Shown piece after piece: positions 19,643-39,702 of a stretch of 64,000 nt of DNA. This DNA comes from a virus. A program made the translations under genes and the position numbers. The stretch is taken from the IMG/VR virus record IMGVR_UViG_3300035698_024184, positions 1 through 64,000 of that record; one strand, written 5' to 3'. Every line of letters begins with the position of its first letter. The stretch's first letter is position 1. Under the pieces are notes generated by a model, which did not search any database, was not told the DNA's origin, and saw only the letters and a list, made by a program, of their open reading frames with translations.

Positions 19643-20694
19643 CTATAATCTCGATGTAAAAAATGTTGTTGACCTACTTTTGAATTTCTCATCCACTCTG
19701 CCATACAATGTGTTGACCAAAAACAACCCAAACAATATTTAGAAACTGCTTCTTTATGATCTCTAATAAACTTTTTAAACTTTTTATTAACTTCGCTACT
19801 TTCGTGTACCCCAGGATTTTCAAAATCAAATATCGAATATTTATTTATTAAAGGATGCCAAAAATCATCACAACCACCTAAATACCCATCTGCATCCACA
19901 GTTATAGAATCTGGGTAAGAACACTTCCATTTAAGATTAACATAATCAGGATTTTTCCACATTTCAAACACCTCATCCGTCTGAAACATCATATAATTCT
20001 TTGATTTATACATCTGAATTAACTCATCAGCTACTTTTCCTAAAGCTTTATAATCTTGAAAACAAAGATTTTTAATTTCTGATTTATCTACTGCAAATTC
20101 ATTCCATTTATTTCTAGCCCAATGAAGTAGGTCCACCTGTGTCCATATCCCTAATTTAGTTTGTTCTCGAATTATCGTTGGAATCTCTCTAAAATTAAGA
20201 TTAGTTGCACAAATTGTACCAGTTACATCTCTTAATCCTAATTCAACAAATTTGCGTAAAATTTTTCTTCCCCACAAAGTTTTTAATCCTATATGAGTAC
20301 GAAGATTTAACGCATAACTATTTGAAAAATCGATACTTGCAGTCCAGCTATCAAGCCCTACTTCCATCATTTTTTCCATCTTTTCAGTTGTTAAACCAAT
20401 ACAATTAGAAAGAATACTAAAACTATGCCTCCTTTTATCATGTCTACTACAGTAACTAATTAGTTCAATTAAATCATCACCTAATAAAAGAGGCTCACCC
20501 CCATAAAAAGCAATAAAAGTAGCCCCTAAATCGAAATAAATTATATCCGTAGCCCTTTTCCATTGCTCTAAAGTAAGTTCTTTCCACTCTCGTCCTAAAC
20601 GTACAGGAGGTTTCTTTAAATTACAATAAGAACAATCTAAATTGCATTTTCGAGTTAATAAAACCTCGGCTTTTAATATTTTTTGTTTATTCAC
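19639..20694 (-). CDS. Radical SAM enzyme with SPASM-like C-terminus
   Basis: GTG 20694 (or TTG 20697) start. CNLDCSYC at residues 17-24 is the canonical CX3CX2C [4Fe-4S] site of AdoMet radical enzymes; GGEPLL follows near 65. The C-terminal third holds further cysteines (KCSYP, GGCDDF, KYCLGCFWSTHC), as in SPASM/twitch domains that bind auxiliary clusters. Such enzymes catalyse difficult C-H chemistry on peptides or small molecules. It is distinct from QueE, the usual radical SAM enzyme of this pathway. Wedged between QueC and DpdA with overlaps on both sides, so a step on the deazaguanine or on its sugar decoration is plausible, but not shown. Confidence 0.85.
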   Translation of the reverse strand: MNKQKILKAEVLLTRKCNLDCSYCNLKKPPVRLGREWKELTLEQWKRATDIIYFDLGATFIAFYGGEPLLLGDDLIELISYCSRHDKRRHSFSILSNCIGLTTEKMEKMMEVGLDSWTASIDFSNSYALNLRTHIGLKTLWGRKILRKFVELGLRDVTGTICATNLNFREIPTIIREQTKLGIWTQVDLLHWARNKWNEFAVDKSEIKNLCFQDYKALGKVADELIQMYKSKNYMMFQTDEVFEMWKNPDYVNLKWKCSYPDSITVDADGYLGGCDDFWHPLINKYSIFDFENPGVHESSEVNKKFKKFIRDHKEAVSKYCLGCFWSTHCMAEWMRNSKVGQQHFLHRDYR

Positions 20695-21418
20695 CAATTA
20701 ATTGAAACTTTCCTTTGTCATAAGCTTCTTTTGCCCATAAAATTCTTTTATTACGTTTTTCCGAATAATAATTATTTTGACCTCGTTCCAAATACATATT
20801 CCCAACTTTTGTACCCCACATATCCTCTTCACAAACTTCATAATAACCATTATTTAATAAAGCAATTTGTCTTCGTAAACAAGCGCCACATTTTCCACAT
20901 GCTCTATCAGTTTCTCCATCATAACAACTTCTAGTACAACGTATCAATGTTACCATAGATAATCCTTTACTAATATAATAACTAATCATATCAGTTTTAT
21001 CCATATTATTAAATAATGTTCTAAAACTAAACTTTTTATTTGGCATTAGTTTTTGTAAAAGAATTTCTGCTTCTAAATAAAATATTAATTCTCGATCAGG
21101 AATTGAATGTTCATCCTGTTGAGTAATTAATAAAATTGAACCTTCTATTTCTAATACTTGCACCGCCTGCATAAAAAGATACAAATTCCTCATAGGAATA
21201 TTTCCATCTGCTTCTTCATATGCTCCTAAATCTAAACGAGAAGCATATTTGAGTCGCATCTCTGGATGTTCTAACTGACATCTTAATAAAGCCTCTATCT
21301 CTTTTCCCATATATTTATGACACAAAGGTACATTAACACACACTGGTTTATCTAAACAATGCCAAGCAATATAAGAATCCATACCACCAGAAAATAATAA
21401 CAAATCTATATTATTCAT
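20687..21418 (-). CDS. queC: QueC-like 7-cyano-7-deazaguanine synthase
   Basis: 243 residues. PP-loop LLLFSGGMDSYIAW at 6-19 (ATP pyrophosphatase), and a C-terminal zinc site C165, C174, C177, C180 (SCYDGETDRACGKCGACLRR). QueC converts 7-carboxy-7-deazaguanine to preQ0 with ATP and ammonia. No glutamine amidotransferase fusion is present, so amide (ADG) formation is not indicated here. Start ATG 21418 overlaps the upstream small gene. Confidence 0.85.
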   Translation of the reverse strand: MNNIDLLLFSGGMDSYIAWHCLDKPVCVNVPLCHKYMGKEIEALLRCQLEHPEMRLKYASRLDLGAYEEADGNIPMRNLYLFMQAVQVLEIEGSILLITQQDEHSIPDRELIFYLEAEILLQKLMPNKKFSFRTLFNNMDKTDMISYYISKGLSMVTLIRCTRSCYDGETDRACGKCGACLRRQIALLNNGYYEVCEEDMWGTKVGNMYLERGQNNYYSEKRNKRILWAKEAYDKGKFQLIGE

Positions 21419-21560
21419 CTTTTATAATTTCTTCATCATTTAATTTTCGTGTTACTAACTTTATTTTTCCATTTAAATGAGCTAATATATCTTCTATTCC
21501 TTTTTTAACACCTTCATATAATTTTTTATCAGAACAATTATTTTTCTTATCTTTTTTCAC
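21411..21560 (-). CDS. Small protein (49 aa), GTG start
   Basis: GTG 21560 overlaps the TAG of the glycosyltransferase gene; ends TAA 21411, overlapping QueC. KKDKKNNCSDKKLYEGVKKG, then IEDILAHLNG and a basic/acidic tail (KLVTRKL). The pattern 'L.EGL..ai..l.G....tr.v' resembles antitoxin-like/HTH leader peptides of phages, but too short for a firm call. Confidence 0.5.
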   Translation of the reverse strand: MKKDKKNNCSDKKLYEGVKKGIEDILAHLNGKIKLVTRKLNDEEIIKDE

Positions 21561-22426
21561 TAATTAACCCCAATATATTCTAACTGTTTCTCAATAGAAA
21601 CACCATAGTCTTTTTCAATTGTTTCTGGTATAGACTTAATAAAATAACCTCTTTTTATAACTTCAGTACCTGGAGAAGTCAAAAAGTGCTCCTTTACCCA
21701 CTGTTTCTTTGCAATATTCTTTTCATACAAAAATTTCCAAATATCTAATTCACTACGATAACCATTTATTATTCGTCTCCAACCTTTATTTTTAGCATCT
21801 CCTGGCCTACTACATAAATGTAATAAATGAGTTTCCAAATCAAGTACTCCAGTACATCCTTTTGCAGACATCATTAAAGATGCTAATACATCTTCTCCAA
21901 TATGATTCCAATCTTTCCACCAATCAAAATAATTAGCCATTTTCAACGCATCTTTAGTATAGGCACACCCCGACATAGCCACTGCATCAATAGGACAATA
22001 CCCCTCTCGTATTTTGTACCAACTGGAATCATTATGAGGATGAATAATACCTGGACTATAAAAGTCATAACCTGCTGAAATAGCATAGTGTATTCTTTCA
22101 ATAAAATTAGAAGGAACTAAAACATCATCATCTAATATTATAATAGCATCACTCTCTTTAGCAATATACTCACACATTGTATAGCGAATTTCTGCATAGC
22201 ATAAACTTTTAGTAGTTTTAAATATTATTTCAACTTTTGTACCCCTATTACGATGAGTCTCCAATAAACCTAAAATTACATCGTCTAAACCAACTTTACC
22301 TTCTAAACTAACATAATCAAAAATTAAAGTTAATCTATTTAATCCAACCTTTTGTTGTAATAAACTACTTAACGGAAACATTAATCGTTCTGATTTATTA
22401 GCTGCTAATATAGCTTGATAATTCAC
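21560..22426 (-). CDS. GT-A-type glycosyltransferase-like protein 3
   Basis: GTG 22426 with AGGAG upstream. GT-A fold features: N-terminal AILAANKSERLM..., IIILDDDVLVPSNFIERI with a DDD (DxD-type, metal/nucleotide-sugar binding) near residue 97, and HIGEDVLASLMM (a conserved acidic helix, base candidate) near 180. It is likely a family-2-like transferase. Clustered with two others between FolE and QueC, so a substrate within the base-modification pathway is plausible. Confidence 0.65.
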   Translation of the reverse strand: MNYQAILAANKSERLMFPLSSLLQQKVGLNRLTLIFDYVSLEGKVGLDDVILGLLETHRNRGTKVEIIFKTTKSLCYAEIRYTMCEYIAKESDAIIILDDDVLVPSNFIERIHYAISAGYDFYSPGIIHPHNDSSWYKIREGYCPIDAVAMSGCAYTKDALKMANYFDWWKDWNHIGEDVLASLMMSAKGCTGVLDLETHLLHLCSRPGDAKNKGWRRIINGYRSELDIWKFLYEKNIAKKQWVKEHFLTSPGTEVIKRGYFIKSIPETIEKDYGVSIEKQLEYIGVN

Positions 22427-23273
22427 AATTTTCTCCTATTAATAAGCTCCGCAAAAATTTCACATCGTATTCCCGATTATACTCTTTACAAATTTGTTCG
22501 CCCAAAAATTTCTCTGAAAAATGTGTTGTATAAAGATTACCTGGATAATGATTTAAATATTGTATAACAGTATCCATATTTGTTAATTTAATAAAAGTTT
22601 TTAATACATCTAACTTCTGTAAAATCCCAAAAGAACTGGCACTAGATGAATCTTTTTCTAAAATTAATTTCATATCAATTAAAGTACAATCCGTACAACA
22701 TTTTACTATCTTATTATTTTTCCACAATAAAAAACTAAATAAAGAATCAATATTTCCTATTAAATCTTGACCTAATTTAGTATAATTTTCGCATAAAAAT
22801 TTAGCACTATTTTGACTATAAAAAACAACCTTATCAGAAAAACTTACTGAATCAAAACACCAATCAGTTTTGTAAATTTTTTGACCAAATTCTGCTACTT
22901 TATAATATAATACATCAAAAATCATTTGAGATAATCGATAATCAAAAGAAGCTAATATTTCACTATCTAAAATAACATTAGCATCAATATTACAAATCCA
23001 AAATGCAGACCCATATTTTAAATTTCGCATTCTCATATCATATAAACTTTTCTCTTTCTTTGAAAAAGTTATATGTTCAACATGAATCCCTCTTTTTAAT
23101 AACATATCTAAAACAATATGCAATTCTTTTTTTCCAATAGATATCCCATCTTCAAGAATTACAATACGAGATACATATTTATCTATTAATTTTCTATCCA
23201 TTACTAAAAAGGTTTGTAATACACGAACTAAAGAATTTGTTCGATTATTAGTCGAAATTAGAAAATCTATCAT
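22398..23273 (-). CDS. Glycosyltransferase-like protein 2, with degenerate DxD
   Basis: MIDFLISTNNRTNSLVRVLQ start typical for GT-A family-2 proteins. At the usual DxD position it reads NIDANVI, so metal binding may be weakened or lost. The C-terminal half is divergent, with several Cys. It may be inactive, a substrate-recognition subunit, or use another motif. Overlaps both neighbouring glycosyltransferase genes. Confidence 0.55.
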   Translation of the reverse strand: MIDFLISTNNRTNSLVRVLQTFLVMDRKLIDKYVSRIVILEDGISIGKKELHIVLDMLLKRGIHVEHITFSKKEKSLYDMRMRNLKYGSAFWICNIDANVILDSEILASFDYRLSQMIFDVLYYKVAEFGQKIYKTDWCFDSVSFSDKVVFYSQNSAKFLCENYTKLGQDLIGNIDSLFSFLLWKNNKIVKCCTDCTLIDMKLILEKDSSSASSFGILQKLDVLKTFIKLTNMDTVIQYLNHYPGNLYTTHFSEKFLGEQICKEYNREYDVKFLRSLLIGENCELSSYISS

Positions 23274-24088
23274 TTACCAAATTCCTCATTAAAATTTAAA
23301 TCTAATTTCAAACAATCTCTTTTAAGAACTTCAATAACATTTTGAAATGGTTTTCCAGGAAAATCACCCATTAATTCCCAAAAGAAATTCTTACCAAATT
23401 CACGATAAATAATTTTCCAAACTTTAATATGATATAAAGGTTCCTGACTATAAATTTTTTGATTATCAGTTGCTAATACTTTACAATTTACAACACATAT
23501 TGGAATTGCCTTTCCAATATATCCTTTTTTTATTATTTTTATTCCAAATATAGTATCATCACCCAGAAAAAAATTAAGTAAACCACAATGTGAATAATAA
23601 TCAACCTCTTCAATTACTTCTCGTCTAAGCATTACACAACCACCATAAACATTTTTAGTATTCATAGCTTTTTGTAAACATATCTCTTTTTTTCGTCTAT
23701 CATCCACTTCATAGTAATAAACCGGAACAACAAATCCAACTTTTTGCTCTTTTAAAACTTTTATTCCTATTTCTAAAAGATTTGAAGGAATCACCATATC
23801 ATCATCTACAATTAAAACATATTGATTTTTTACCTGTCGAAGTAGAACATCTTTTGCCCAACCTCCATGTTTAGTAGGAAATGGATTATATATAATTTTT
23901 ATATCCACTCCTAAATTTCGTAAAACTTCTAAATACCTCTGAAAAAAGGTATTTTTAGCTACTATAGTATCCTTACAACCATCAAAATAGATAATTAAAC
24001 GATCAAATTTTTGAGTCTGTACAACCAATCCCGCTAAAACAGTTATAATAACTCCAGGATTATTTGTTGCTATTAAAACATCAATCAT
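23270..24088 (-). CDS. GT-A-type glycosyltransferase-like protein 1
   Basis: 272 residues, ATG 24088 overlapping the FolE TGA. MIDVLIATNNPGVIITVLAG start, IIYFDGCKDTIVAKN, QYVLIVDDDMVIPSNLLEI (DDD motif near residue 95) and FFLGDDTIFGIKI (acceptor-side acidic motif near 175). A family-2-like glycosyltransferase fold is clear. Sugar and acceptor cannot be read from sequence. Confidence 0.7.
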   Translation of the reverse strand: MIDVLIATNNPGVIITVLAGLVVQTQKFDRLIIYFDGCKDTIVAKNTFFQRYLEVLRNLGVDIKIIYNPFPTKHGGWAKDVLLRQVKNQYVLIVDDDMVIPSNLLEIGIKVLKEQKVGFVVPVYYYEVDDRRKKEICLQKAMNTKNVYGGCVMLRREVIEEVDYYSHCGLLNFFLGDDTIFGIKIIKKGYIGKAIPICVVNCKVLATDNQKIYSQEPLYHIKVWKIIYREFGKNFFWELMGDFPGKPFQNVIEVLKRDCLKLDLNFNEEFGK

Positions 24089-24627
24089 TTCTGAATCCCA
24101 ATTAAATTAAAAAATTCTTCTTTATCTATATCCCCATGATAAGCACACGTCATAGTATTAACATTCGGAGCCTTTACTCCTCTTACTGACATACACATAT
24201 GACAAGCCTCAACTACTGCAATTACATTATGCGGCTTTACTACATCATATATATAATCCACAATTTCTTGTGTCAACACTTCTTGTATTTGTGGTTTTTT
24301 AGCAAAATAATCAACAACTCGAACAATTTTGGATAATCCCACTAATTGTTCATTTGGTAAGTAACCTACATGAGCTACCCCTACAAAAGGAATTAAATGA
24401 TGTTCACACATCGATCTAACTGGAATATTAAATAGAGTAACCAATTGATCGACTTTTTTTTCATTAGGAAACACCTTTAGCACAGGTGGTTCGGTTTTTA
24501 AACTAGAAAATATCTCACTATACATTCTCGCTACTCGTTGTGGCGTTTCTAACAGTCCAGGTCTATTTATGTCTTCACCAATCTCTTGTAGTATAAATCT
24601 AACAGCATTTTCAATTTTTTTATTCAT
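24085..24627 (-). CDS. folE: GTP cyclohydrolase I
   Basis: 180 residues. RPGLLETPQRVARMY near residue 22, MCEHHLIPFVGVAHVGY with Zn ligands C74 and H77, and EACHMCMSVRG with C145 (third ligand). It converts GTP to dihydroneopter in triphosphate, the first step toward 7-deazaguanines and folate. Its place between QueE and the glycosyltransferases makes the deazaguanine route more likely. Length close to the bacterial enzyme. Confidence 0.93.
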   Translation of the reverse strand: MNKKIENAVRFILQEIGEDINRPGLLETPQRVARMYSEIFSSLKTEPPVLKVFPNEKKVDQLVTLFNIPVRSMCEHHLIPFVGVAHVGYLPNEQLVGLSKIVRVVDYFAKKPQIQEVLTQEIVDYIYDVVKPHNVIAVVEACHMCMSVRGVKAPNVNTMTCAYHGDIDKEEFFNLIGIQK

Positions 24628-24629
24628 TT

Positions 24630-24920
24630 TTAATTAACTATATTAGAATTAGGAACCACAATTTGGGGTGTTTGTACCTGTGCTCGTTTTTGTTTTTGTA
24701 TAAAATTCATTTGTATAGGCATATCTACTAAACTAACTTGTAAATTAGTTAAAATAAAGCCTGTTTCCATTAATGATAATCCCTGTGTAACCACATTATA
24801 ATTATTTTTAGGTTCTTTTACTCCAATTAAAAATCCTTCAGCTTCTATTTCCGTTTTTTCACCTTTTGGATCTTCTAATGTAATTTTCCAAATATTATCT
24901 TTTTTAACTTCTTCACTCAT
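24630..24920 (-). CDS. Hypothetical protein (96 aa) within the deazaguanine cluster
   Basis: ATG 24920 overlaps the QueE TAA (TAATG). Beta-rich acidic N-terminus (IWKITLEDPKGEKTEIEAEG) and a Gln/Val-rich, possibly disordered C-terminal part. No recognised motif. It lies between queE and folE, so a supporting role is possible but unsupported. Confidence 0.5.
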   Translation of the reverse strand: MSEEVKKDNIWKITLEDPKGEKTEIEAEGFLIGVKEPKNNYNVVTQGLSLMETGFILTNLQVSLVDMPIQMNFIQKQKRAQVQTPQIVVPNSNIVN

Positions 24921-25591
24921 TAAGCAACTCCCAGTATTTTATGTATTTGTACTTGAACCTGTATATCACAATATTTAACATCTTTTACTATTTCTTCAAC
25001 AATTCGTTTCCCCATCAAAAACTCACCTGAAACATAACATGGAGAAAAAAAACAACTAATTTTACATTCTATCACTTTTTTAAACCAAAGATATAAATTT
25101 AAAGCATTCATTAAATCATCTTCATCTTTAATTACAAACTTTATACAATCACCATCTTTATACTAACCAGTAATATTTCTAGGTATTTGTCCTTGTAACT
25201 CACGATCAATTTTAGCAGAATTTAATTTAACATCCCAAGAAACACTAATATATTTACGATTTTCTGGTAAAAAATAAAACTCAATTATACTATTAGTTTC
25301 AATATTAATTTTACAATCAGGAATTTCTCGTATTAATTGTATAACTAACTCTCGTAATTCTTCTAATTGACAACAAGGTTCCCCACCAGTAATACAAATA
25401 TATTTTGAATTTAATTTTTTTACTTTCTTAACTATTTCAGATATAGAAATTAACTCACCATTTTTAAAATCTGTGTCGCAATAGCTACAATTTAAATTAC
25501 ATTTTGAAAAACGAACAAAAACTGTAGGAAATCCAGTATATAAACCCTCTCCCTGAATTGATTTAAAAATTTCTTTTATTTCTATTTTCAT
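24920..25591 (-). CDS. queE: 7-carboxy-7-deazaguanine synthase QueE, split by in-frame TAG
   Basis: ATG 25591 overlaps the QueD TGA (ATGA). Residues 1-142: IFKSIQGEGLYTGFPTVFVR and CNLNCSYC at 31-38 (radical SAM cluster), TGGEP near 68. Codon 143 is TAG (25163-25165). The same frame then continues with YKDGDCIKFVIKDEDDLM..., FFSPCYVSGEF and QVQIHKIL to TAA 24920, which is exactly the QueE C-terminal region. Together 224 codons, the usual QueE length. With TAG as a stop the enzyme lacks its last third. No ribosome site precedes the downstream half. QueE makes carboxy-deazaguanine from carboxytetrahydropterin. Confidence 0.8.
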
Positions 25592-25959
25592 TGTATTATC
25601 ACTGGATATTGAGCAAACGCATCTTTTGTTTCCCAAACACGAACTCCACAAACTTCCGATAAAGCTTTTTTCATTACATTATATATCCATACACAAATAT
25701 TTTCAGCCGTTGGATTCTCCATATAATCATTTAAGTATTGATGATCCAATACATTATTTACTAATGTATCCCATATATCAGATACATCATGGAAATCAAT
25801 TACCATACCCTGTTTTGCACCTTTAATTTGAATTTTACCCTTTATATAAATCCGAACTTTATAAGAATGCCCATGTATATTTTTACAATGATGCTCAACA
25901 TGTGGTAAACGATGGGCCATTTCTAATTCAAAATCTTTCGTAATTAATATTTCACTCAT
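25588..25959 (-). CDS. queD: 6-carboxytetrahydropterin synthase QueD
   Basis: 123 residues. Zn ligands H16, H29, H31 (MAHRLPH and NIHGHSY), catalytic-type C25 just before, and VWETKDAFAQY near the C-terminus with the substrate-binding Glu. It turns dihydroneopterin triphosphate into 6-carboxytetrahydropterin. Ends at TGA overlapping QueE. Confidence 0.9.
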   Translation of the reverse strand: MSEILITKDFELEMAHRLPHVEHHCKNIHGHSYKVRIYIKGKIQIKGAKQGMVIDFHDVSDIWDTLVNNVLDHQYLNDYMENPTAENICVWIYNVMKKALSEVCGVRVWETKDAFAQYPVIIQ

Positions 25960-26422
25960 TATTAAACCTCGAATATTTAAAAATTTTCTTTTGTAATTCA
26001 GCTTTTTTAACTAAATCTTTTTCATTATTTAATTCATCAACAATAGCAGTTATAACTAAACTAAAAGGCTGTGTTTCAAATTGTACTAAGGTAGTTTTTA
26101 AATGAGGATATTCCAATTCTTTACAAGCTTTATATAAAGCAACAAAGTCTTCTACAAACATACAAAATATCGGTTTTTTACCAAATTCAGCATGACAAGC
26201 AAGCGGAAACTTATCTTTTTCATATTCCTCCGCTTGAACCAAAGATTTTATTGGATTTGGAGTTTTTGTAGTACTCTTAGTAGCTTTTTTACATTCAATA
26301 GCTAAAAATGGATGCTCCACATCACTAACTGCTTGACCTAATGCCGCACTATGACTTCCATTTAATAATTTCATTACTAATCGTTGTAATCCTTGCCAAC
26401 ATTGTTTTTTAGCACTACTCAT
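25952..26422 (-). CDS. PD-(D/E)XK-type nuclease-like protein (156 aa)
   Basis: ATG 26422. The segment GQAVSDVEHPFLAIECKKAT is a plausible D...(E)xK active site of the restriction-endonuclease-like superfamily (Asp near 36, ECK near 44-46), after a Gly/Ser-rich loop (LLNGSHSAALG). This is like Holliday-junction-resolvase or VRR-type folds. The C-terminal half is helical with KKAELQKKIF. Specific class unclear. Confidence 0.5.
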   Translation of the reverse strand: MSSAKKQCWQGLQRLVMKLLNGSHSAALGQAVSDVEHPFLAIECKKATKSTTKTPNPIKSLVQAEEYEKDKFPLACHAEFGKKPIFCMFVEDFVALYKACKELEYPHLKTTLVQFETQPFSLVITAIVDELNNEKDLVKKAELQKKIFKYSRFNNE

Positions 26423-28997: not shown

Positions 28998-29031
28998 ATT
29001 TAACTCCGTTCTTTTTAATTTTTTATAAAAA

Positions 29032-29104
29032 TAGCAGGGGTCGGAATCGAACCGACCTAACCAAGGTTATGAACCTCGTGAATTCACCAGAATTCTACCC
29101 TGCG
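29032..29104 (-). tRNA. tRNA-Met (CAT), initiator-like
   Basis: 73-nt cloverleaf: acceptor CGCAGGG pairs with CCCTGC from position 2 (positions 2-7 pair with 66-71; C1 and U72 do not pair), D stem GAAT/ATTC with A11:U24, anticodon loop TTCATAA (CAT), T arm GTCGG TTCGATT CCGAC, discriminator A73, no encoded CCA. The unpaired 1-72 and A11:U24 are hallmarks of bacterial initiator tRNA, but the anticodon stem has only two, not three, G:C pairs next to the loop. The promoter at 29142-29169 precedes it. Confidence 0.85.
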
Positions 29105-29141
29105 ACCTTCAGGTTGTGATCCTGTTTATCTCGCTACTCTT

Positions 29142-29390: not shown

Positions 29391-30374
29391 TTACCCTTTC
29401 AAATGAATTAACACTTTATCTAAAGTACACTCTTTTTCACCAATATCAGGTCGCCATCGTATAAACCTAGGATGTCGAATACTAAAACAACCATTTTTCT
29501 TTTCATTAACTTCTTGACCTCGAATTTCAAAACATTCAAACAATAGATTCTCTTTATTCTGAGTAATATATGTCCTTATATTATCATCCATTCCAGAACA
29601 TTTTCCTAATTCTATCACTAAATCTTTATCATAAACTCCAAATTTTATAGCACCTACTAATCCCTCATATTTACCTTTTTTAGCTGGCATAAAACCAATA
29701 CAAAATACATCTAAATCACACACTTGTTTAGCTTTATACCATCCTTTTCCATAAACTGCCTTAGAATCCTTTATCATTCCACCTTCATATCCTTCATCCA
29801 TCATCCCTCTACAAATACCCAACAACCCTTCCGAATGATCGAATTCTGTATACTGAGTAGATACATGGAAATGCCCATAAGCCTTTTCATCAATAATTTG
29901 TAGTTCCTCATAGAATTTCTCTAAATATTTTCGCCTCTCAAATTCAGGAAAGCCTCTTAAATCACACCCCTTAAAGAAAAGAATGTCAAACATTACCCAA
30001 TGTAAAAATCCAAACTTTTTCTGCCGTTCAACTGCCTTTTCAGCAGAACATCCCATTATTGTAGTTACATCTTTAGAAGATTTCTTTTCACCTGCAATAA
30101 TTTCACCCTCAACAATAGTACCAATCCAATTTGATAAATCTAATCCAGTAATATGAGATACTCGATCTGTTTTTTCAACAAATTCATTTGTAATAACAGA
30201 AACCCTACGACTTTGTAGGACATTTGTTTCCCCAATAATTAGTCGATATCTAGCTCCATCATATTTTAATTCAACTAGCATATCGGGATTTTTCCATATC
30301 TTTGAATCTAACTGGTCAATACTACCACCCTTAGCTTTAGCAAAAGCTAATTTTTGTGTATCAATAATTAACAT
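29391..30374 (-). CDS. ATP-dependent DNA ligase
   Basis: 327 residues. Nucleotidyltransferase motif I VELKYDGARYR with Lys37 as AMP-bound lysine, motif III-like GTIVEGEI, motif IV EGGMIKD and motif V near YKAKQVCD. It closes nicks in phage DNA. ATG 30374 with GAAAGGTAG. Size fits small phage ligases with an OB domain. Confidence 0.85.
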   Translation of the reverse strand: MLIIDTQKLAFAKAKGGSIDQLDSKIWKNPDMLVELKYDGARYRLIIGETNVLQSRRVSVITNEFVEKTDRVSHITGLDLSNWIGTIVEGEIIAGEKKSSKDVTTIMGCSAEKAVERQKKFGFLHWVMFDILFFKGCDLRGFPEFERRKYLEKFYEELQIIDEKAYGHFHVSTQYTEFDHSEGLLGICRGMMDEGYEGGMIKDSKAVYGKGWYKAKQVCDLDVFCIGFMPAKKGKYEGLVGAIKFGVYDKDLVIELGKCSGMDDNIRTYITQNKENLLFECFEIRGQEVNEKKNGCFSIRHPRFIRWRPDIGEKECTLDKVLIHLKG

Positions 30375-30384
30375 TTTCTACCTT

Positions 30385-31275
30385 TCATATCTTTATAGTA
30401 TACAAACTCTTTAAATTACGAAATTTATTTCCCAATCCCATTCCACAACCAATAATAAATGCCTCTACTGGTACTTTCCATCCCGCCCATTTTTGCTCCT
30501 TATTTTTTCTAACCAAAGAACAAACTTGTATATCCTCAGAGGAAAGTATAGACCTAATAAACTCAATTGTATTTCCTGTATCTACAATATCATCCAATAT
30601 TAAAACAGCATCATTTTTATCTACCTCTAAATCTAATGGATAAGTTAATTCAGGAGTTTTAATTGCCTGAACATCTTTTTCATAAGATGAAACACCTATA
30701 AACCCATAATCAAATTCAAATTTAAAATATTCCATTATCTTAAATGCAAACCAAACTCCTCCTTTTAATGGAATTATAATTTTTACAGGCTGTTTTATAT
30801 TACCATAACAAATATTTATATATTCACTTAATTTTTTAATACGATCTTCCACTTCACGTGCAGTTTTAAATAACTCTAAATTAGAAATATTTTCTTTTTT
30901 TGGATGATAATGCCCACCATCATCAACTTTCATACCACCGTCTAAAATTAATACTTCATCTACAGCTTTCTTCCAATCACCCCTATATCCAACTCCACGA
31001 TCATCAATATAAGCAATCGCCACAGGCTTATCAGCCTCAATAATACCAGTATAAGGTAACTGATGTTCTTTCATAAATTCTTTAATTATATCTACATGCT
31101 TTTTATTAATCGTTCCCCAATAAGTAGAATTTCGACAAGAATGAATCCAAATTTCAAATCCAGCCTTAATTAATCTCTCCAATCCTTCTTTAACTCCTGG
31201 TTCTAAAGAACCAACATCAGGAAATTTATGCTGACATATTGTACCATCAAAATCAATACAAACTACTTTACTCAT
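30385..31275 (-). CDS. HAD-like phosphatase fused to phosphoribosyltransferase
   Basis: ATG 31275 (GGAG upstream; TAATG overlap with the metalloprotease gene). Residues 1-125: HAD fold with VVCIDFDGTI (DxD at 8-10), IHSCRN (Thr/Ser motif) and YIDDRGVG (acidic motif). Residues 160-236: PRTase with a PLKGGVWFA PP-loop at 169-177 and VLILDDIVDTGNT (PRPP motif) at 224-236, as in hypoxanthine/xanthine-guanine transferases. The two halves together could first dephosphorylate and then phosphoribosylate (or reverse) a base or nucleotide. An unusual fusion in a phage; substrates unknown. Confidence 0.75.
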   Translation of the reverse strand: MSKVVCIDFDGTICQHKFPDVGSLEPGVKEGLERLIKAGFEIWIHSCRNSTYWGTINKKHVDIIKEFMKEHQLPYTGIIEADKPVAIAYIDDRGVGYRGDWKKAVDEVLILDGGMKVDDGGHYHPKKENISNLELFKTAREVEDRIKKLSEYINICYGNIKQPVKIIIPLKGGVWFAFKIMEYFKFEFDYGFIGVSSYEKDVQAIKTPELTYPLDLEVDKNDAVLILDDIVDTGNTIEFIRSILSSEDIQVCSLVRKNKEQKWAGWKVPVEAFIIGCGMGLGNKFRNLKSLYTIKI

Positions 31276-32060
31276 TATACTAACTCCGTTTGACACTGTT
31301 TTTGTAACCAATGTGATACCATATCACAAATTTTTCCTTCACCAATTCGTTGCTCTACAGTATAATCCTTAGTACCCAATAACAAATGAGATAACTCATG
31401 GCTAATAACAGAAGAATAACGAAACAACCATTGAAAATCTTCCATAATAGGAACAAACCCTTGAGAATCCACAGGAATAGCAGGAATTAAATTCCAATCA
31501 ATAAACTTTCTATTAATATAAATACGCTTATCACATACCATCATAATAATATTATCTATTTTCTTTTTATTTTTTATTTGTTTTTCTGAACAACTAACAT
31601 TTAAACTAATAGTATTTGTAATATCTCCAACTACAATTTGATCTATATCATATTCACATTTAGCTAATTCTTTAATTACTGTCTTAAAAAATTCACATAT
31701 TCGATTTTCTCGATCATTTAATGGCCCTCGATTACTAATAGTCAACTTTTCTTTTGGAACTCGAATATCACTTATATCAATTCCTTTTGGATGGTTTTTT
31801 AATAATTTTCTCTGAACATCACCAGAAATAATAATAACATCATATCCTAATTCTCGTAATAAACTTACTTTAAATAATTGACTAGAAATATAATAATCTA
31901 ATCCAAATATAAATATATCCTTCTTCATTAAATCATCCCAAGTATACTCACTAGTATCATCTATATTAAAAATATTTATTTCTTGAGATAAAGTGTGTAA
32001 TATATCTTTTTGACTCATCAATCCAATATCCAAATTAGAATCTTCATTCTTTCCAGCCAT
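31275..32060 (-). CDS. HExxH metalloprotease-like protein (C-terminal part behind TAG)
   Basis: From ATG 32060 the product has 261 residues; HELSH at 221-225 is a zinc-protease motif in a SSVISHELSHLLLG helix. The frame actually continues upstream without a stop to TAG 32142-32144, coding DRYLTEEELQKLVKFGLKSG, then FNKVYDE. No ribosome site precedes ATG 32060. The N-terminal part otherwise has no recognised motif. It shares its frame with the GHKL ATPase, so one long protein of 584 residues would form by TAG readthrough. Confidence 0.6.
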   Translation of the reverse strand: MAGKNEDSNLDIGLMSQKDILHTLSQEINIFNIDDTSEYTWDDLMKKDIFIFGLDYYISSQLFKVSLLRELGYDVIIISGDVQRKLLKNHPKGIDISDIRVPKEKLTISNRGPLNDRENRICEFFKTVIKELAKCEYDIDQIVVGDITNTISLNVSCSEKQIKNKKKIDNIIMMVCDKRIYINRKFIDWNLIPAIPVDSQGFVPIMEDFQWLFRYSSVISHELSHLLLGTKDYTVEQRIGEGKICDMVSHWLQKQCQTELV

Positions 32061-32141
32061 TTCATCATATACTTTATTAAATCCTGATTTAAGCCCAAAT
32101 TTTACTAATTTTTGTAACTCTTCTTCAGTTAAATATCTATC

Positions 32142-33029
32142 CTAAGTTTCTAACCATCGAGAAATAGATTTCGAACTTCCTTCTTTTAATACTTTTTTAC
32201 ATAATAGTACTGCTTCCGTATGGATATGCCGCAACAACCCCTCATAAGCATAATTTTGAATAAATTCCTTTCTATCAGGACATCTTAATCGAACTAACTT
32301 ATCTGTTATATGAATAATGCCCTCTAATTTATACCCTGTTAGTTCTTTTACATATCTATATTGATAATATAACTTTATGCTACCATATACAGCGGGTGTT
32401 ATAGCTCCCACTCCCCAATCAGTTTTAAAATTATATTGAATTTTAGTTTCATTACCATAAAATGCTGGTATAGAATCATGCCAATTTTTAATTTCTAAAA
32501 GCTTATAATCTTCTTCCATTTCACGATAATATACCTTAAAAGGCACATATTTAGCTAACATATATACGCGATCACGAAATTTATAAACCTCAAAATTTTC
32601 TTTTAAACAACTTAATATTAAAACAAAACCCTTTGAAACTTTACCTTCACTTTCATTAACAACATCTAATCGTTGTTCCTCAAACATTTTAGCCACATCA
32701 AATTCTGCTTTTCGATTTTTACTTTCCACAGTAATAAAATCAGAAATACACATTCCAGAAAAGAAACCCATTCCAAATGGGTTCTCTTCTTCAACTTCCT
32801 TTCCCCAATCAGAACGACTCTGAATAAACAATACACTTAGATCATCACAACCACATCCATCATCATAAAAACGAACATGTTCCTTTGTTAACTCAACATA
32901 CAATTCAGTTGCTTTAGCACGTTGAGCATTCTGAAACGCTTCATCAACAAATGAATACGGATCTGCAAACGTATCTAAAGTATTTTTCATATGTTTCAAA
33001 ACATCCACTGACACTTCAATTTTTCTCAT
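32142..33029 (-). CDS. GHKL (Hsp90-like) ATPase
   Basis: 295 residues from ATG 33029. N box DEAFQNAQRA at 29-38, G1 box YDDGCGCDD at 55-63 and G2 box ENPFGMGFFSG at 82-92 define the GHKL ATP-binding fold (Hsp90, MutL, MORC type). The C-terminal half is beta-rich transducer-like. It ends at TAG 32142, in frame with the metalloprotease. GHKL ATPases occur in several defence and ubiquitin-related gene sets; the role here is inferred from operon position only. Confidence 0.75.
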   Translation of the reverse strand: MRKIEVSVDVLKHMKNTLDTFADPYSFVDEAFQNAQRAKATELYVELTKEHVRFYDDGCGCDDLSVLFIQSRSDWGKEVEEENPFGMGFFSGMCISDFITVESKNRKAEFDVAKMFEEQRLDVVNESEGKVSKGFVLILSCLKENFEVYKFRDRVYMLAKYVPFKVYYREMEEDYKLLEIKNWHDSIPAFYGNETKIQYNFKTDWGVGAITPAVYGSIKLYYQYRYVKELTGYKLEGIIHITDKLVRLRCPDRKEFIQNYAYEGLLRHIHTEAVLLCKKVLKEGSSKSISRWLET

Positions 33030-33044
33030 CACAATACTCTATTA

Positions 33045-33695
33045 TTAAATAGTGTTATCAATACAATCTAAACTCAAAATATTAAATTCTACATCCTTTT
33101 TAATAGGAAATCCTCTTAAATATTTTACAAACTGGGATACCATTATTCCCGCCACAATATTTGCACAATATATAGTACTTTTCGCTGTACAAGGAGCCTC
33201 ATAAGCATCTTCTTTTTTAAATAAGGTGTTAGAATAAAAAGGCTCGTCATTTACCACCGTAAGTACTCGACATATTTCTGCTGCCATACGTCCATCACAC
33301 CAAAATGGTAAAAGTCCTCCAATCTCACCCCAAATTTGTGCTCTTGTTTCAATAGAGTCCACACAACAAAATACTCTATCATTAAACTCTATTTTGTCCA
33401 TTGAAAATGGTATTTCAAAAGTTTGAATACAACAATTAGGATTAAATTGACTACACATCTCTTTTGTCGCATGAGTTTTATATTTATCTAAATCTTCAAC
33501 CTTATATCCTTGTGGACCTAAATTTTCAACATTTACTTTATCAAAATCAACTAATTGAATTTTATCCACCCCCATTATAACCAATTGTAAAGCAACTTGT
33601 CGCCCAATAGCACCAACTCCAATAATAGTAACACTATTAGTCTGTAATTGTTCTTGTGTTACTAATCCCGAATACCTAGAACCTCTATCTAGCAT
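33045..33695 (-). CDS. ThiF/E1-like adenylyltransferase
   Basis: ATG 33695 with AAGGAG 6 nt upstream; overlaps the JAMM gene end. IIGVGAIGRQVAL with GxGxxG at 26-31, the acidic VDFDKV strand end at ~49-53, then catalytic-region cysteines (APCTAKSTIYCAN; C169, C177). E1-like enzymes adenylate the C-terminal Gly of a ubiquitin-like protein and usually pass it to a cysteine. At 216 residues it is a minimal ThiF-like E1. It is paired with the Gly-Gly protein at 35274. Confidence 0.85.
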   Translation of the reverse strand: MLDRGSRYSGLVTQEQLQTNSVTIIGVGAIGRQVALQLVIMGVDKIQLVDFDKVNVENLGPQGYKVEDLDKYKTHATKEMCSQFNPNCCIQTFEIPFSMDKIEFNDRVFCCVDSIETRAQIWGEIGGLLPFWCDGRMAAEICRVLTVVNDEPFYSNTLFKKEDAYEAPCTAKSTIYCANIVAGIMVSQFVKYLRGFPIKKDVEFNILSLDCIDNTI

Positions 33696-34488
33696 ATCCA
33701 ACTCCTTGTTCTCTCCGAAATTCTCTATACCAATATGCTTTTGATGCCCGATCTAATCCATTAAAATCAATCATCAACTCATTTAAATATATATGAAACA
33801 CTTCATCTTCTTCCCACATTAGTTCATCGTTAATAGTACCTAAATTACTTTGAAAATTACCGCAAAAATTCGGAACACCCCCATTAAGATAAGAATAATT
33901 AGTAACGTTTGATTCAACATTTTCTTCAAATTCTTGATCCCAAACCACTTTATCTATAGAACCAGTAATCTCTTTAGTTATTTTTATTGGAATACAAAAA
34001 TCTTTCTGTAACGAAGAATTTATTTTCAAACGACAATACCCTCTCTTTAACTCATCATTTAAAATACACATAACCGCCCAATCTGATTTTCCAAAAACAC
34101 GTTTAAATGTTTCTTCATCAATAAAACTAGGATTAGTATTCATACCAGGATGAGTATGTATCCAAATTCGACTTATTTGACAAATTTGTCTACCCTCAGA
34201 TATTTGTTGAGCATAAAAATCAGCAATAGCCTCATCATCAAACTTAATTGAAGACAAACCAACTTCTTGTTTTACAATAGCTATATCTTTAACATATAAC
34301 ACATCTTTAATATCAGTAATACCAAAACCACTAACTTCATTAGGGCTTTTATTATACATATACATCATTTTAGCCCAAGCACTTTTACTAAATCGCAAAA
34401 CTGGAGGTTGTAATTTAAATAATGGCTTACTTTTAATATTAAAATTTTTATACTCACGTATCTTATTTATCACATTCTTCTTAATCAT
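33685..34488 (-). CDS. JAB/JAMM-domain protease
   Basis: Start ATG 34488 (TTGGAG upstream). E51, then H111-T-H113-P, S121 and D124 give the exact JAMM pattern (HxH-x7-S-x2-D plus upstream Glu), as in RadC/Rpn11-like metal deubiquitinases. The C-terminal ~120 residues are additional, with Trp/Phe-rich acidic helices. It should cleave the ubiquitin-like protein from its targets or process its precursor. Gene order Ubl-E2-JAMM-E1 fits a conjugation operon. Confidence 0.85.
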   Translation of the reverse strand: MIKKNVINKIREYKNFNIKSKPLFKLQPPVLRFSKSAWAKMMYMYNKSPNEVSGFGITDIKDVLYVKDIAIVKQEVGLSSIKFDDEAIADFYAQQISEGRQICQISRIWIHTHPGMNTNPSFIDEETFKRVFGKSDWAVMCILNDELKRGYCRLKINSSLQKDFCIPIKITKEITGSIDKVVWDQEFEENVESNVTNYSYLNGGVPNFCGNFQSNLGTINDELMWEEDEVFHIYLNELMIDFNGLDRASKAYWYREFRREQGVGYAR

Positions 34489-34502
34489 TTTTAACTCCAA
34501 AT

Positions 34503-35204
34503 TTAATCAATATATTTCCCTAAAGAACTATAATTAGAATAACTCCTATGACCATTAGTACTATATGTTTGTAACATCAATTCTAAAGCAATTATAAAAC
34601 TATCAAATTGTAACTCTCTTAAATTCTTCTGTATCATCGCACTACTATATCCAAAACACACCTCTCCGTCTGAATCCGTAAAAGGATGACAACAAAAAGA
34701 AGTATTATGTTTTTGTGAAAATAAAGTTACCCCCCCGATAAATAAATTTCGTACCTCAATAAAAACGTCAAAAACTCCAAAATTAATTTGCCTATCTTCA
34801 CCCCTAAATACAATATCACTCGTTTCAAAAATCATTTTCTTTTCAGAAAATCGAACAACATGACTTTTACGAAGTAACATCAAACTATCAACAAAACGTG
34901 TCTTATTTGGAAAAATAGCTTGACATTTTTGAAAAACTGGTTTAAATTGGTCAAAATAACAATTTTTCTCGAATTTTATTAATTGCATAAGACAAGATTG
35001 AAGTTTTGTCAAAGTTTTTACTTCTTCTATCTTTCCAATGCCCTTTTTAAACTTTTCCAATAACATCAAATTATGCTCTATATCTACTTTCTGCTCAAAT
35101 TGTATCCGAAAATACCTACTATAAGCGAAACAAAGTCCATTCCAATTTCTTTCAACAAAATCTTCACAATTTTTTCGATTAGTAACAACTACTCCTTGAC
35201 TCAT
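34503..35204 (-). CDS. E2-like ubiquitin-conjugating-fold protein
   Basis: Start ATG 35204 (MSQGVVVTNRKN) with GGAG upstream; 233 residues. The region HPFTDSDGEVCFG at 173-185 matches the E2 catalytic segment (HP...G.(I/V)C), with Cys183 as the likely thioester residue, preceded by a strand block (DVFIEVRNLFIGGVTLFS). The N-terminal ~110 residues are helical and unfamiliar. Similar to the E2-like partner of phage/plasmid JAB-ThiF operons (PRTRC-B-type). Family call rests on the motif and operon. Confidence 0.65.
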   Translation of the reverse strand: MSQGVVVTNRKNCEDFVERNWNGLCFAYSRYFRIQFEQKVDIEHNLMLLEKFKKGIGKIEEVKTLTKLQSCLMQLIKFEKNCYFDQFKPVFQKCQAIFPNKTRFVDSLMLLRKSHVVRFSEKKMIFETSDIVFRGEDRQINFGVFDVFIEVRNLFIGGVTLFSQKHNTSFCCHPFTDSDGEVCFGYSSAMIQKNLRELQFDSFIIALELMLQTYSTNGHRSYSNYSSLGKYID

Positions 35205-35226
35205 TATATTACTCCAAAATAAAACA

Positions 35227-35262
35227 AGTATAGTAGATAGATTTAACACTATCTACTATACT
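35227..35262 (-). terminator. 14-bp perfect hairpin between Ubl and E2-like genes
   Basis: AGTATAGTAGATAG at 35227-35240 pairs perfectly with CTATCTACTATACT at 35249-35262 around an 8-nt loop; on the minus strand TGTTTTATTTT follows. It could be a leaky terminator or processing site that makes the Ubl more abundant than the enzymes. Confidence 0.65.
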
Positions 35263-35273
35263 CTTCCTTTTTA

Positions 35274-35489
35274 TTAACCACCATCAATATCTTTAGGTGA
35301 ACATACAACACAATCCTTATCTTTCAAAATTGCAGTTGCAATAACAGGCCTACCATTTACACGAATCACAAAACGAATATGCGACTCACCAATTTGAGCT
35401 TCTAAAAAAGCATTAACAGTAGTTCTTGCCTTAATAGTAACTTCCTCAGCATACCCTGTTCCATCATTATTAATATACGTTACTTTCAT
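35274..35489 (-). CDS. Ubiquitin-like protein ending in Gly-Gly (71 aa)
   Basis: ATG 35489 with GGAG upstream. MKVTYINNDGTGYAEEVTIK starts a beta-grasp pattern of the MoaD/ThiS/Ubl type: strand, strand, helix (VNAFLEAQIGE), strands IRFVIRVNGRPV and KDKDCVV. It ends in DIDGG; the last two residues (70-71) are Gly-Gly directly before TAA, the mature ubiquitin-like C-terminus. Upstream of E2-like, JAMM and E1 genes. Two Cys (60, 63) are unusual. A sulphur-carrier role is the main alternative. Confidence 0.85.
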   Translation of the reverse strand: MKVTYINNDGTGYAEEVTIKARTTVNAFLEAQIGESHIRFVIRVNGRPVIATAILKDKDCVVCSPKDIDGG

Positions 35490-36174: not shown

Positions 36175-37083
36175 TTAAAAAATATCTGGTTTTAACTGTT
36201 TTATTTTTTGATAGCATAATTTCTGTAATAAATTAAACTTTATTTCAGGGTTCCTGAACTTTTTAACAAAATTCCAACATTCCTCTGATACCAAATCATG
36301 GTAAACTGTATGTAGCAGGCGGAGTATATGCTTGCTCTCCCACCCTCCGGTTGTATTGACTATCTTAACATAGGTTTTTTCTACCAATGCTCCAGTACAA
36401 TAACAATTAACAATATCCTGTTCTGTTGTTTTTCCACCTTGCATCTTCGGAGCACCCATTGTTTTATCATGTAATTCCTGAAATTCAGACTTTACTATTT
36501 TTGCCCATGTTTGTCGTCCATACTTATTATAATAGTCGTAATTTTTAATTACTACACCTTCGCCTGTTCCCTGTCCGTCCTGTATAAGAAAAACATTTCT
36601 CTCTAATTGATGATAAAATTGCTCTTCAGTACCATTTTGAAAACTGCATAAAACAGGAATAAAATCAAGATTAAACTCTTCTAATAATTGCTTATAAACA
36701 CTATAAGGAATATATTCTAAACTCCTATTATTAACATTTATATCAAGAGTAACATCGAATATATAAAATTTATTCCAAGTATCATCTCTATAAGTTTTAA
36801 GGCTATGTCTAACTAAAAACTCACCAAATAACCTATGTGTCGGGTGTTTCTGTAGATATTCTTTTATGTTTTTCTGTTGTTGTATATAAGTCTTAAAACC
36901 AATATTGTCAAGATTGTCAATTAAATGCCTTGTCCGACTGCCACATTGTACTTCACCCTGGTCCAGCCAAACAGAGCCATTGGTTCCATCTATTTTCGGC
37001 ATCAATACACATTCCCCTATTTCTATACCCTCTACCTCAGAAGTCCCCCATCTTTCTATATGTTGATATTTAGCAAACTCCAC
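36175..37083 (-). CDS. RNA ligase, Rnl2-type
   Basis: 302 residues from GTG 37083 with AAAGG. Motif I KIDGTNG with Lys30 (AMP acceptor), motif III FGEFLV and YIFDV, motif IV EGVVIKN and motif V AKIVK. RNA ligases of this class seal nicks in RNA duplexes, for instance in tRNA repair. It lies 12 kb from a second RNA-ligase-like gene. Confidence 0.8.
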   Translation of the reverse strand: MEFAKYQHIERWGTSEVEGIEIGECVLMPKIDGTNGSVWLDQGEVQCGSRTRHLIDNLDNIGFKTYIQQQKNIKEYLQKHPTHRLFGEFLVRHSLKTYRDDTWNKFYIFDVTLDINVNNRSLEYIPYSVYKQLLEEFNLDFIPVLCSFQNGTEEQFYHQLERNVFLIQDGQGTGEGVVIKNYDYYNKYGRQTWAKIVKSEFQELHDKTMGAPKMQGGKTTEQDIVNCYCTGALVEKTYVKIVNTTGGWESKHILRLLHTVYHDLVSEECWNFVKKFRNPEIKFNLLQKLCYQKIKQLKPDIF

Positions 37084-37439: not shown

Positions 37440-37787
37440 CAACAACTTTTCAAAAAAAGCTAAAGAAATAATTGCAACTTGATTACCTGTTTGTTCAAAT
37501 TGTATAATAAACACAGGTTCTTTTAAAGAATCTGTTGCTTCCTGCTCAATCTTTTGTAACATATTTTCACTAACACGAAATGAACTAAAAGAAGTTGTCT
37601 TCGCTTCACATATACATTCCCCAAAATGTACATCACCCTTCATTCCTAATGCTCCAGAAGCAGGTGTTCGTTTACCATTAAATCTATTAGCTAATTCATT
37701 TTCTTGTTTTAAACTCCGTTTTTTAATAGTTTCAATATTACCCCTCGGAACTGGCCTCTTCGGAACATGCTGTTTCGGTCTTGGCAT
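37428..37787 (-). CDS. Holliday-junction-resolvase-like nuclease (119 aa)
   Basis: ATG 37787 with GAGG. SLKQENELANRF, then TPASGALGMKGDVHFGECIC with EAK shows a Hjc-like PD-(D/E)XK site: Glu near the start of the first helix, Asp in MKGDV and ExK in CEAKTT. It would resolve four-way junctions. It overlaps RecA's end by 50 nt, consistent with a recombination role. Confidence 0.65.
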   Translation of the reverse strand: MPRPKQHVPKRPVPRGNIETIKKRSLKQENELANRFNGKRTPASGALGMKGDVHFGECICEAKTTSFSSFRVSENMLQKIEQEATDSLKEPVFIIQFEQTGNQVAIISLAFFEKLLKII

Positions 37788-38865
37788 ATTTTTCTACCTC
37801 ACTAAATAAATTATTTCTCTCTTCTTCATGTTTCATAATATAAGCATATAAACCATCACTACCATGAAACTTCTCTTCCTTATACTTAAACCAACTACCC
37901 GCTTTTTCAACAATTCCGTATCTAATAGCATAAATTATCATTCCCTGAACAATATCAACATGCCCCTTAGAAAACTTAATACCTTTTCCATCAATATAAT
38001 CAGCTACAGTCAACCAATAACTACCCTCCCTACGAGCAGAAAAAGTCTTATTTTTCTGAGTAAAGAATTTAATTTGTTGTTGAACAGCATGTTTTTCACC
38101 TTCTATTTCCTCATGTTCAACTGCTCCAGCCGAACAACGAATTCGTATTGAATGAAAATGCTTCATCGCCTGACCACCACTTACAGTTTCAGGATTACCA
38201 TAACCACTCAACTTATATCTTATTTGACGAACACCAATAATAGAAGGATGAGTTAAATCTTTTTGTCTTAAATAATTATATGCAGAGGTCCATTTTTTAG
38301 CTGCTAATGCTAACATACGTGCTTCTAATGCCATATGACTATTTTCAGCAGATTTTTCAATTTTTCCAGAAGGAACCATACTATCATAATCATCAATAAT
38401 AATAGCTCCAACTGTACCAGAACGAATTAAAGATTCAATTATATCAACAGACTGTTCTCCATAATCACAATTCATTTTTATAAAATTTGGATCTTCAACA
38501 TCAACACCTAAATTAGCAAACCATTCGGGATCCCAAGCCCCATCTTCATCATTCCAAACAACAATTGGACATACTCCTTCTGGTAAAGCTCCTTTTTTAG
38601 CTAATCGTTGAAAATTTGCTACCCACAACGCCGCAGTAGTTGTTTTCCCACCTGATTCCGGCCCAAATAATTCAGTTGCTCTACCAACAGGAATACCACC
38701 TCCTACTTCAGTATCCAATGCTGGTATTCCCCAAGGTATTCGTAATACACCAGCTTTTTCTTCAGAAGCAAATGAAATCACAGTAAGTTTATCCTTAGCT
38801 GCTTTACTATACTTACTATTAATTTCTTTCATTAAAGTTTTTAAAACTTCTAATTTTTCATTCAT
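37738..38865 (-). CDS. recA: RecA-like recombinase
   Basis: Start ATG 38865 with GAGG upstream. GPESGGKTT Walker A at 68-76, VVWNDEDGAWD, AIIIDDYDSM Walker B, GVRQIRYKLSG loop L2-like. 375 residues. Acidic C-terminal tail. It performs strand exchange in phage recombination and repair. It is downstream of the SSB-like gene and hairpin 38887-38941. Confidence 0.9.
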   Translation of the reverse strand: MNEKLEVLKTLMKEINSKYSKAAKDKLTVISFASEEKAGVLRIPWGIPALDTEVGGGIPVGRATELFGPESGGKTTTAALWVANFQRLAKKGALPEGVCPIVVWNDEDGAWDPEWFANLGVDVEDPNFIKMNCDYGEQSVDIIESLIRSGTVGAIIIDDYDSMVPSGKIEKSAENSHMALEARMLALAAKKWTSAYNYLRQKDLTHPSIIGVRQIRYKLSGYGNPETVSGGQAMKHFHSIRIRCSAGAVEHEEIEGEKHAVQQQIKFFTQKNKTFSARREGSYWLTVADYIDGKGIKFSKGHVDIVQGMIIYAIRYGIVEKAGSWFKYKEEKFHGSDGLYAYIMKHEEERNNLFSEVEKYAKTETACSEEASSEG

Positions 38866-38886
38866 ATAAATCCTCAATAAAAAAAT

Positions 38887-38941
38887 TGGGACCGAAATTC
38901 GGTAATTCAATAAAATAGTAGATAAATTAATCTCGGCCCCA
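38887..38941 (-). terminator. Hairpin between SSB-like and RecA genes
   Basis: TGGGACCGA (38887-38895) pairs with TCGGCCCCA (38933-38941, one G:U), and an internal ACCGAAATTCGGT palindrome sits at 38891-38903. On the minus strand a T7 run follows the stem directly, 20 nt before the RecA start. It is a terminator or attenuator. Confidence 0.65.
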
Positions 38942-38949
38942 TATAATTC

Positions 38950-39702
38950 TTAGAACCGAACTCGTTGATCTGCCTCATTATACTGTGGTACAGCATCACT
39001 ACTAGTATTACCTTCAGTATTACCTTCAATATTTGGAGCCTTATTAGATGCTACACTTAACTTTTCAACATCCAACATCGCTTGTTCAATTGTATAAGGT
39101 TTTAATACATCTAACATATCTATTGATTCAATTAACTCAACAGGATAGGTACTAAGATCAGCCTTTTCTACATAACTATAATTCGTACCCGAAGCATTAG
39201 ATTGAGCATCATTAGGCCGAATTATCTCATATTGTAAACCAATTAAAGTACCACCTTTTTTCGCAATTTGTTTCAAAATAATATCTGAAACCTCACCTTT
39301 AACCATTAACAATTTCTTTTCATCTTTATGTTCATTACCCTTATTATCAATCCAAGTTGTATGATCTATAATCGAAAAGAAATTCGCTATATAAGATTTA
39401 ATCCCTGCTTCACAATAGGGACAACGATCATCACCATTACCTCTCAAACAAGTACGAAAATTATGCCAATCAAGTTTACGCTTAGCAGTATTATAAAGAG
39501 CAAATTGATGTTCTCGAATTACAAAAGGCTCAAATTCCATATTATCAGACTTAAATGGCCCTAAAAAAGTAACTTCTGTTTCAGAATTCACCTTCATAAA
39601 AAATCTACGAACACGTCCTGATTGACGTTCTTGCTCTTCTTTTTCACGCTCTTGTTGAGCTAAATCTACATTACCACCAACTATCCAACTTTTTTCTGTC
39701 AT
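38950..39702 (-). CDS. Single-stranded-DNA-binding protein, gp32-like
   Basis: 250 residues. MKVNSETEVTFLGPFKSDNM, TCLRGNGDDRCPYCEAGIKS (zinc-type CxxC), then beta strands and a Gln/Ser/Glu tail ending in a terminal Phe (RVRF). A zinc-bearing OB fold and an acidic tail with a terminal aromatic are typical of T4 gp32-like proteins. Position next to RecA and replisome supports it. Confidence 0.6.
   Translation of the reverse strand: MTEKSWIVGGNVDLAQQEREKEEQERQSGRVRRFFMKVNSETEVTFLGPFKSDNMEFEPFVIREHQFALYNTAKRKLDWHNFRTCLRGNGDDRCPYCEAGIKSYIANFFSIIDHTTWIDNKGNEHKDEKKLLMVKGEVSDIILKQIAKKGGTLIGLQYEIIRPNDAQSNASGTNYSYVEKADLSTYPVELIESIDMLDVLKPYTIEQAMLDVEKLSVASNKAPNIEGNTEGNTSSDAVPQYNEADQRVRF

Follow-up and report, generated by a model that had tools for sequence, protein, structure and literature searches.

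An in-frame TAG interrupts a predicted Hsp90-type ATPase/metallopeptidase-like gene adjoining a putative ubiquitin-like cassette in a phage

In crAss-like phages, TAG has been reassigned and is read as Gln with suppressor tRNAs, and one crAss-like genome with an acquired suppressor had begun to accumulate TAG in its conserved genes, according to the part of the source considered here (PMC7886860). In-frame stops in prokaryotic genes have been reported to be widespread, and the portion of that report drawn on here names readthrough, pseudogenes, and sequencing errors as their sources (PMC7918605). The window analysed in this work, which covers 64,000 bases of a 64,815-base IMG/VR record that is probably a genome fragment, is AT-rich and carries nearly all of its genes on the minus strand. 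One of these genes consists of two open parts separated by an in-frame TAG.

32145..33029, minus strand: N-terminal part, GHKL (Hsp90-like) ATPase, open frame of 295 aa from the ATG at 33029
32142..32144, minus strand: in-frame TAG, residue 296 of the read-through product, from the sequence
31278..32141, minus strand: C-terminal part, 288 aa, metallopeptidase-like with HELSH, from codon use and collinear relatives

A GTG lies one codon upstream of the ATG at 33029. Downstream of the TAG, the frame was open for 288 codons, a run with a chance of about 1e-12 at the base composition of the window, and was closed by the TAA at 31275-31277. Translation from the ATG at 33029 through the TAG gave 584 residues, in agreement with the length in the original prediction. 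The TAG was followed by 27 in-frame sense codons (DRYLTEEELQKLVKFGLKSGFNKVYDE) ahead of the first ATG (32060), and their codon log-odds was 0.29. Gene segments of the window (266) averaged 0.24, and 77 stop-free segments read out of frame gave -0.58, with no single one as high as 0.29. The ATG at 32060 had no Shine-Dalgarno sequence (-0.4 kcal/mol), the reference being 39 ATG genes of the window with a median of -5.8 kcal/mol, 26 of which were at or below -4 kcal/mol. Both the coding-like stretch of 27 codons after the TAG and the missing ribosome site had been predicted from the sequence, and the reading frame, the codon scores, and the Shine-Dalgarno energy confirmed them. Elsewhere in the window, the UvsX-like gene (37738-38950, minus strand) showed 13 coding-like in-frame codons between an upstream TAA and its first TTG, and its true start may be a non-standard codon.

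Searched with a profile of the GHKL part, viral sequences gave 28 loci and bacterial ones at least 80. Sixteen of the 28 viral loci (L095-L109 and L111) were taken as collinear relatives, 15 of them non-redundant (L096 duplicates L097), while the 11 loci L112-L122, in which the match was confined to the ATPase part or little more, were not used, and L110 was set aside for its contig end and a TAA at codon 12. Two of the 80 bacterial loci listed (L123 and L124) were opened as ORFs, and L123, a contig from a MAG with the name Bacteroides sp., together with the 15 viral loci made up 16 non-redundant full-length relatives. Each of the 16 contained a single uninterrupted ORF of 573-619 aa that was collinear with the whole 584-residue product, and none consisted of two independently started genes. 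Residues 297-323, which would be lost with a start at 32060, aligned with the relatives, and the C-terminal part matched L123 in tblastn with an E of 3.6e-4. At the column of the TAG, all 16 relatives had a sense codon (I in 11, V in 2, F in 2, and L in 1).

Since these relatives have a single collinear ORF, the GHKL and HExxH ORFs are halves of one gene and, judged from the alignments, constitute one gene family with a single ancestral gene. The proposal that the two halves form one protein was upheld in this way, and the comparison with homologues suggested along with it revealed no split homologue among the 16 full-length relatives. The results established one ancestral gene with its frame intact on both sides of the TAG and with no start site behind it. 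The annotation of an ATPase ORF and a protease ORF is thereby corrected to one gene family, with a single ORF in each of the 16 relatives examined; an automatic gene caller would give two proteins and wrongly place the start of the second at 32060.

Other searches for relatives were less productive. Single-protein scans of viral contigs yielded no relatives of the GHKL part, the HExxH part, E1, or the DpdA-like queuine tRNA-ribosyltransferase-like protein, and megablast of 8.5 kb against phages yielded no match. Exact-match patterns for the surroundings of each TAG, in which the stop position was free, hit 0 contigs each; such patterns miss a relative that differs elsewhere, and the record itself was perhaps excluded. 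The GHKL homologues on plasmids (5 of 60 records) and L002, all single ORFs of 542-594 aa, were rejected as evidence of the fusion for the unconvincing alignment of their C-termini with the HExxH part, and a 511-aa ORF behind E1 in L020 was rejected as a GHKL protein, having one motif alone and no real similarity to the query.

The N-box and glycine motifs of the GHKL part were kept in the homologues, the family profile matched HtpG/TRAP1 chains (best E 1e-7), and the top Foldseek match of the ATPase half was HtpG (2iop_A, E 5.9e-12; mean pLDDT of the model 66). With both the fold and the motifs present, the N-terminal half is a predicted Hsp90-type GHKL ATPase. In the AlphaFold2 model of the 584-residue product, which was built from 17 sequences with the TAG set as Q and had a mean pLDDT of 66, residue 296 was located at the end of helix 286-296 and before helix 302-308, and the TAG is predicted to sit in the linker that joins the ATPase and C-terminal halves. 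Searches with the C-terminal half gave no named family. The HExxH motif was HELSH in the window product and HELAH in L108 and L123, and the other 14 of the 16 relatives did not contain it. Since HExxH is kept in just 2/16 relatives, peptidase activity should not be assumed for the family; HELSH is present as predicted, and the label "protease" given to this half is uncertain.

The reading that we favour, at a probability of about 0.5, is an isolated, non-programmed nonsense interruption of a single gene, either as a real allele or as a consensus error. It ranks as the best supported explanation, a tolerated amber codon comes next, and gene fission and programmed readthrough are disfavoured. 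The single gene would encode an Hsp90-type GHKL ATPase, a helical linker, and a zinc-metallopeptidase-like domain, and one nonsense change to TAG would have occurred in the linker, being a recent true allele or a consensus error of the metagenome assembly. Where the host has normal release factors, only the 295-residue ATPase part would be produced, and the downstream part, without a start site of its own, would be largely lost save for trace readthrough. The queE gene would be in the same condition. The nonsense change is presumably recent, and a dedicated readthrough device is probably absent.

This nonsense interruption is favoured because all of the 16 relatives have one ORF and the C-terminal frame is undecayed; because the column of the TAG is hydrophobic, the contexts of the two TAGs differ, and the RNA folds are unremarkable; and because there is no amber tRNA, no RF domain, and ten other ORFs end in TAG. 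It is also favoured because of L110 (5995-6641), a GHKL-family locus closely related to L103 and L109, in which the premature TAA at codon 12 shows that broken alleles of this family occur in metagenome contigs. The point against it, suggestive but not strong, is that one contig has two premature stops, both of them TAG and both in genes that are otherwise well preserved. Because the second gene, queE, carries the same kind of stop, the phage may tolerate TAG.

25166..25591, minus strand: queE N-terminal part (radical SAM 7-carboxy-7-deazaguanine synthase), from NCBIfam QueE models
25163..25165, minus strand: in-frame TAG inside queE, preceding the D..KFV and Q.HK..GV motifs
24923..25162, minus strand: queE C-terminal part, 80 aa, from alignment with seven phage QueE that have no interruption

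The best E with the NCBIfam QueE models was 1.2e-25, under the model cut-offs on this truncated piece. The frame after the TAG comprised 80 codons, 17 of them ahead of the first ATG, and queE is the other gene of the window for which the same arrangement had been noted. The seven phage QueE proteins compared were single ORFs of 235-254 aa. The TAG fell in a variable stretch, with the conserved D..KFV strand and the Q.HK..GV end both located after it, and a truncated QueE would be without these motifs. The gene belongs to a queuosine-type group (17936-26422, minus strand) of queD, queE, queC-like, radical SAM, and queuine tRNA-ribosyltransferase-like genes, with a large ribonucleotide reductase gene downstream, and the named PHROG families of the group suggest 7-deazaguanine DNA modification.

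Across the window, 100 non-overlapping ORF ends comprised 64 TAA, 24 TGA, and 12 TAG. Only two of the 100, those of the GHKL gene and queE, had a coding-like stretch of 15 codons or more after the stop and ahead of the next start, and both were TAG (2/12 TAG vs 0/88 TAA/TGA; Fisher p about 0.013). By codon use, TAG made up 24% of the single-step routes to a stop, and with this mutational share both interruptions would be TAG by chance at about 0.06; the excess of TAG among the interrupted genes is suggestive, not strong. In the other ten ORFs ended by TAG, the frame continued just 0-16 codons past the stop, and TAG is also an ordinary terminal stop in the window.

It is possible, at a lower probability than the nonsense interruption, that the amber codon is tolerated, with a suppressor tRNA of the host or of the missing part of the phage reading UAG, both full-length proteins being made, and TAG at an early stage of accumulation. 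The restriction of the premature stops to TAG, with none at the 88 TAA/TGA ends, is in line with this, as are the intact frames of the GHKL gene and queE past the stop and the precedent, described in the part of the source considered, of a crAss-like phage in which TAG began to accumulate once a suppressor had been acquired (PMC7886860). However, just two in-frame TAG were found against 19,155 codons, TAG terminates ten ORFs, and a Gln would occupy a hydrophobic column; the residues I, V, F, and L of the relatives indicate that the TAG does not stand in place of a Gln column. No tRNA with the CTA anticodon was found in the 64,815-base record either, although its absence proves little because the record is probably a fragment. 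The record contained one tRNA-Met(CAT) at 29031-29105 and one tRNA-like RNA lacking most of the anticodon loop, and neither a release-factor gene nor an RF-1/2 domain was found in it. Recoding of TAG in the whole genome (code 15) was rejected on the two in-frame TAG per 19,155 codons and the 12 of 100 ORFs ending in TAG. It is doubtful that amber reassignment is just beginning in this phage, with two accessory operons (one for 7-deazaguanine DNA modification, the other the Ubl-conjugation cassette with the ATPase-protease) yielding full-length products only in those hosts or infection stages that read UAG as an amino acid, so that DNA and protein modification would depend on a suppressor; if amber tolerance were true, the phage would be a natural intermediate toward a changed code.

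The tRNA-like RNA (57003-57070, minus strand) scored 50.1 bits with the Rfam tRNA model and had its acceptor, D, and T arms complete and its anticodon stem perfect, with 2 nt in place of the 7-nt anticodon loop. It was missed by ARAGORN and had no blastn match in phages. It might serve as a decoy or a processing signal, or be a pseudogene.

Gene fission, in which two proteins are made, the second from a start of its own or through re-initiation past the TAG, is unlikely. The GHKL frame does close at the TAG and is followed by an ORF with an ATG, as other same-frame neighbours in the window lie behind TAA stops, but this ATG is 27 codons downstream and has no Shine-Dalgarno sequence, the codons ahead of it are coding-like and aligned with the relatives, and none of the full-length relatives is split.

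Programmed readthrough that keeps the lone ATPase and the ATPase-protease in a fixed proportion is very improbable: the TAG is at the domain boundary, where a two-product design would put the stop, but its 3' context is not common to the queE TAG (GATAGA vs TATAAA), six folds at the TAG sites gave no notable RNA structure (z -1.05 to +1.13), by which readthrough driven by RNA structure was rejected, the TAG column has no stop in any of the 16 relatives, so no programmed stop is conserved, and two products of queE would not be sensible with the truncated form lacking the conserved motifs. The idea that readthrough occurs or is built in was thus not supported: the base contexts of the two sites, which the original prediction had proposed to examine, shared nothing, RNA structure, amber tRNA, and release factor were not found, TAG is an ordinary stop elsewhere in the window, and the TAA of L110 is a nonsense allele without a change of code.

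More interesting than the stop itself is the location of this Hsp90-like ATPase/HExxH protein, which adjoins a phage cassette of Ubl, E2-like, JAB, and E1 genes and lies behind them.

33045..33701, minus strand: E1-like (ThiF) enzyme, Pfam ThiF E 1.6e-28
33685..34500, minus strand: JAB-type peptidase, HTHPGMNTNPSFIDEE motif; Prok-JAB E 0.026, below the cut-off
34503..35249, minus strand: probable E2-like protein, from its position and the HPFTDSDGEVCFG motif
35274..35489, minus strand: ubiquitin-like protein ending in GG, relatives by tblastn

The assignments of E1 and JAB are supported, the latter by tblastn matches with E of 1e-24 to 1e-44 to JAB ORFs in L015-L018, and that of Ubl is supported by relatives in the same loci (tblastn E 1e-7 to 1e-10; NF005028 E 0.0012, below the cut-off). 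The E2-like protein had no match in the family-profile searches and is assigned tentatively. RNA ligase and DNA ligase genes (36175-37083 and 29391-30374, minus strand) flank the Ubl/GHKL region. Relatives of E1 were found in 0/14 of the virus records with relatives of the ATPase gene (L096 and L103 being outside this search), and a fifteenth record, the MAG of L123, had E1 matches on other contigs. The ATPase fusion gene was found in 0/13 records of E1 relatives by a profile search run without a positive control. The placement of the ATPase-metallopeptidase gene beside the Ubl cassette is so far local to this phage. We hypothesize that the two form a small phage system for energy-dependent tagging and removal, as their adjacency suggests.

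The nonsense allele and the tolerated amber codon are both known kinds. As in the TAG-recoded crAss-like phages, for which an incipient case is known, in-frame TAG occurs here in conserved phage genes; in contrast to the phages in the part of that source considered, there are two TAG only, in early or accessory genes, the fragment has no suppressor tRNA, TAG still ends genes, and the site in the ATPase gene is hydrophobic, not Gln, in the relatives (PMC7886860). With the in-frame stops of prokaryotes, as treated in the part of the report used here, the locus shares a single stop in an otherwise intact frame, here without close relatives (PMC7918605).

The best match of the DNA polymerase, "Acinetobacter phage MD-2021a" (CAKLQH020000014.1; L008, L009), was rejected as a phage, being a bacterial chromosome contig by annotation. 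The crAss-like loci L011-L014 have Ubl, E2-like, JAB, and E1 genes ordered as in the window, with E1 annotated as a thiamine biosynthesis protein and JAB, in some, as a metalloprotease domain protein. The crAss cassettes have no GHKL/HExxH gene after E1, unlike the window. The window E1 matched the crAss-like E1 proteins in phmmer with E of 5e-22 to 1e-16, and the order Ubl, E2-like, JAB, E1 is the same as that of gp79-gp76 of crAss001, where gp79 and gp78 appear from their sequences to be Ubl and E2-like, a likeness that extends to the bacterial JAB/E1/Ubl operons in the portion of the literature considered (PMC1779556).
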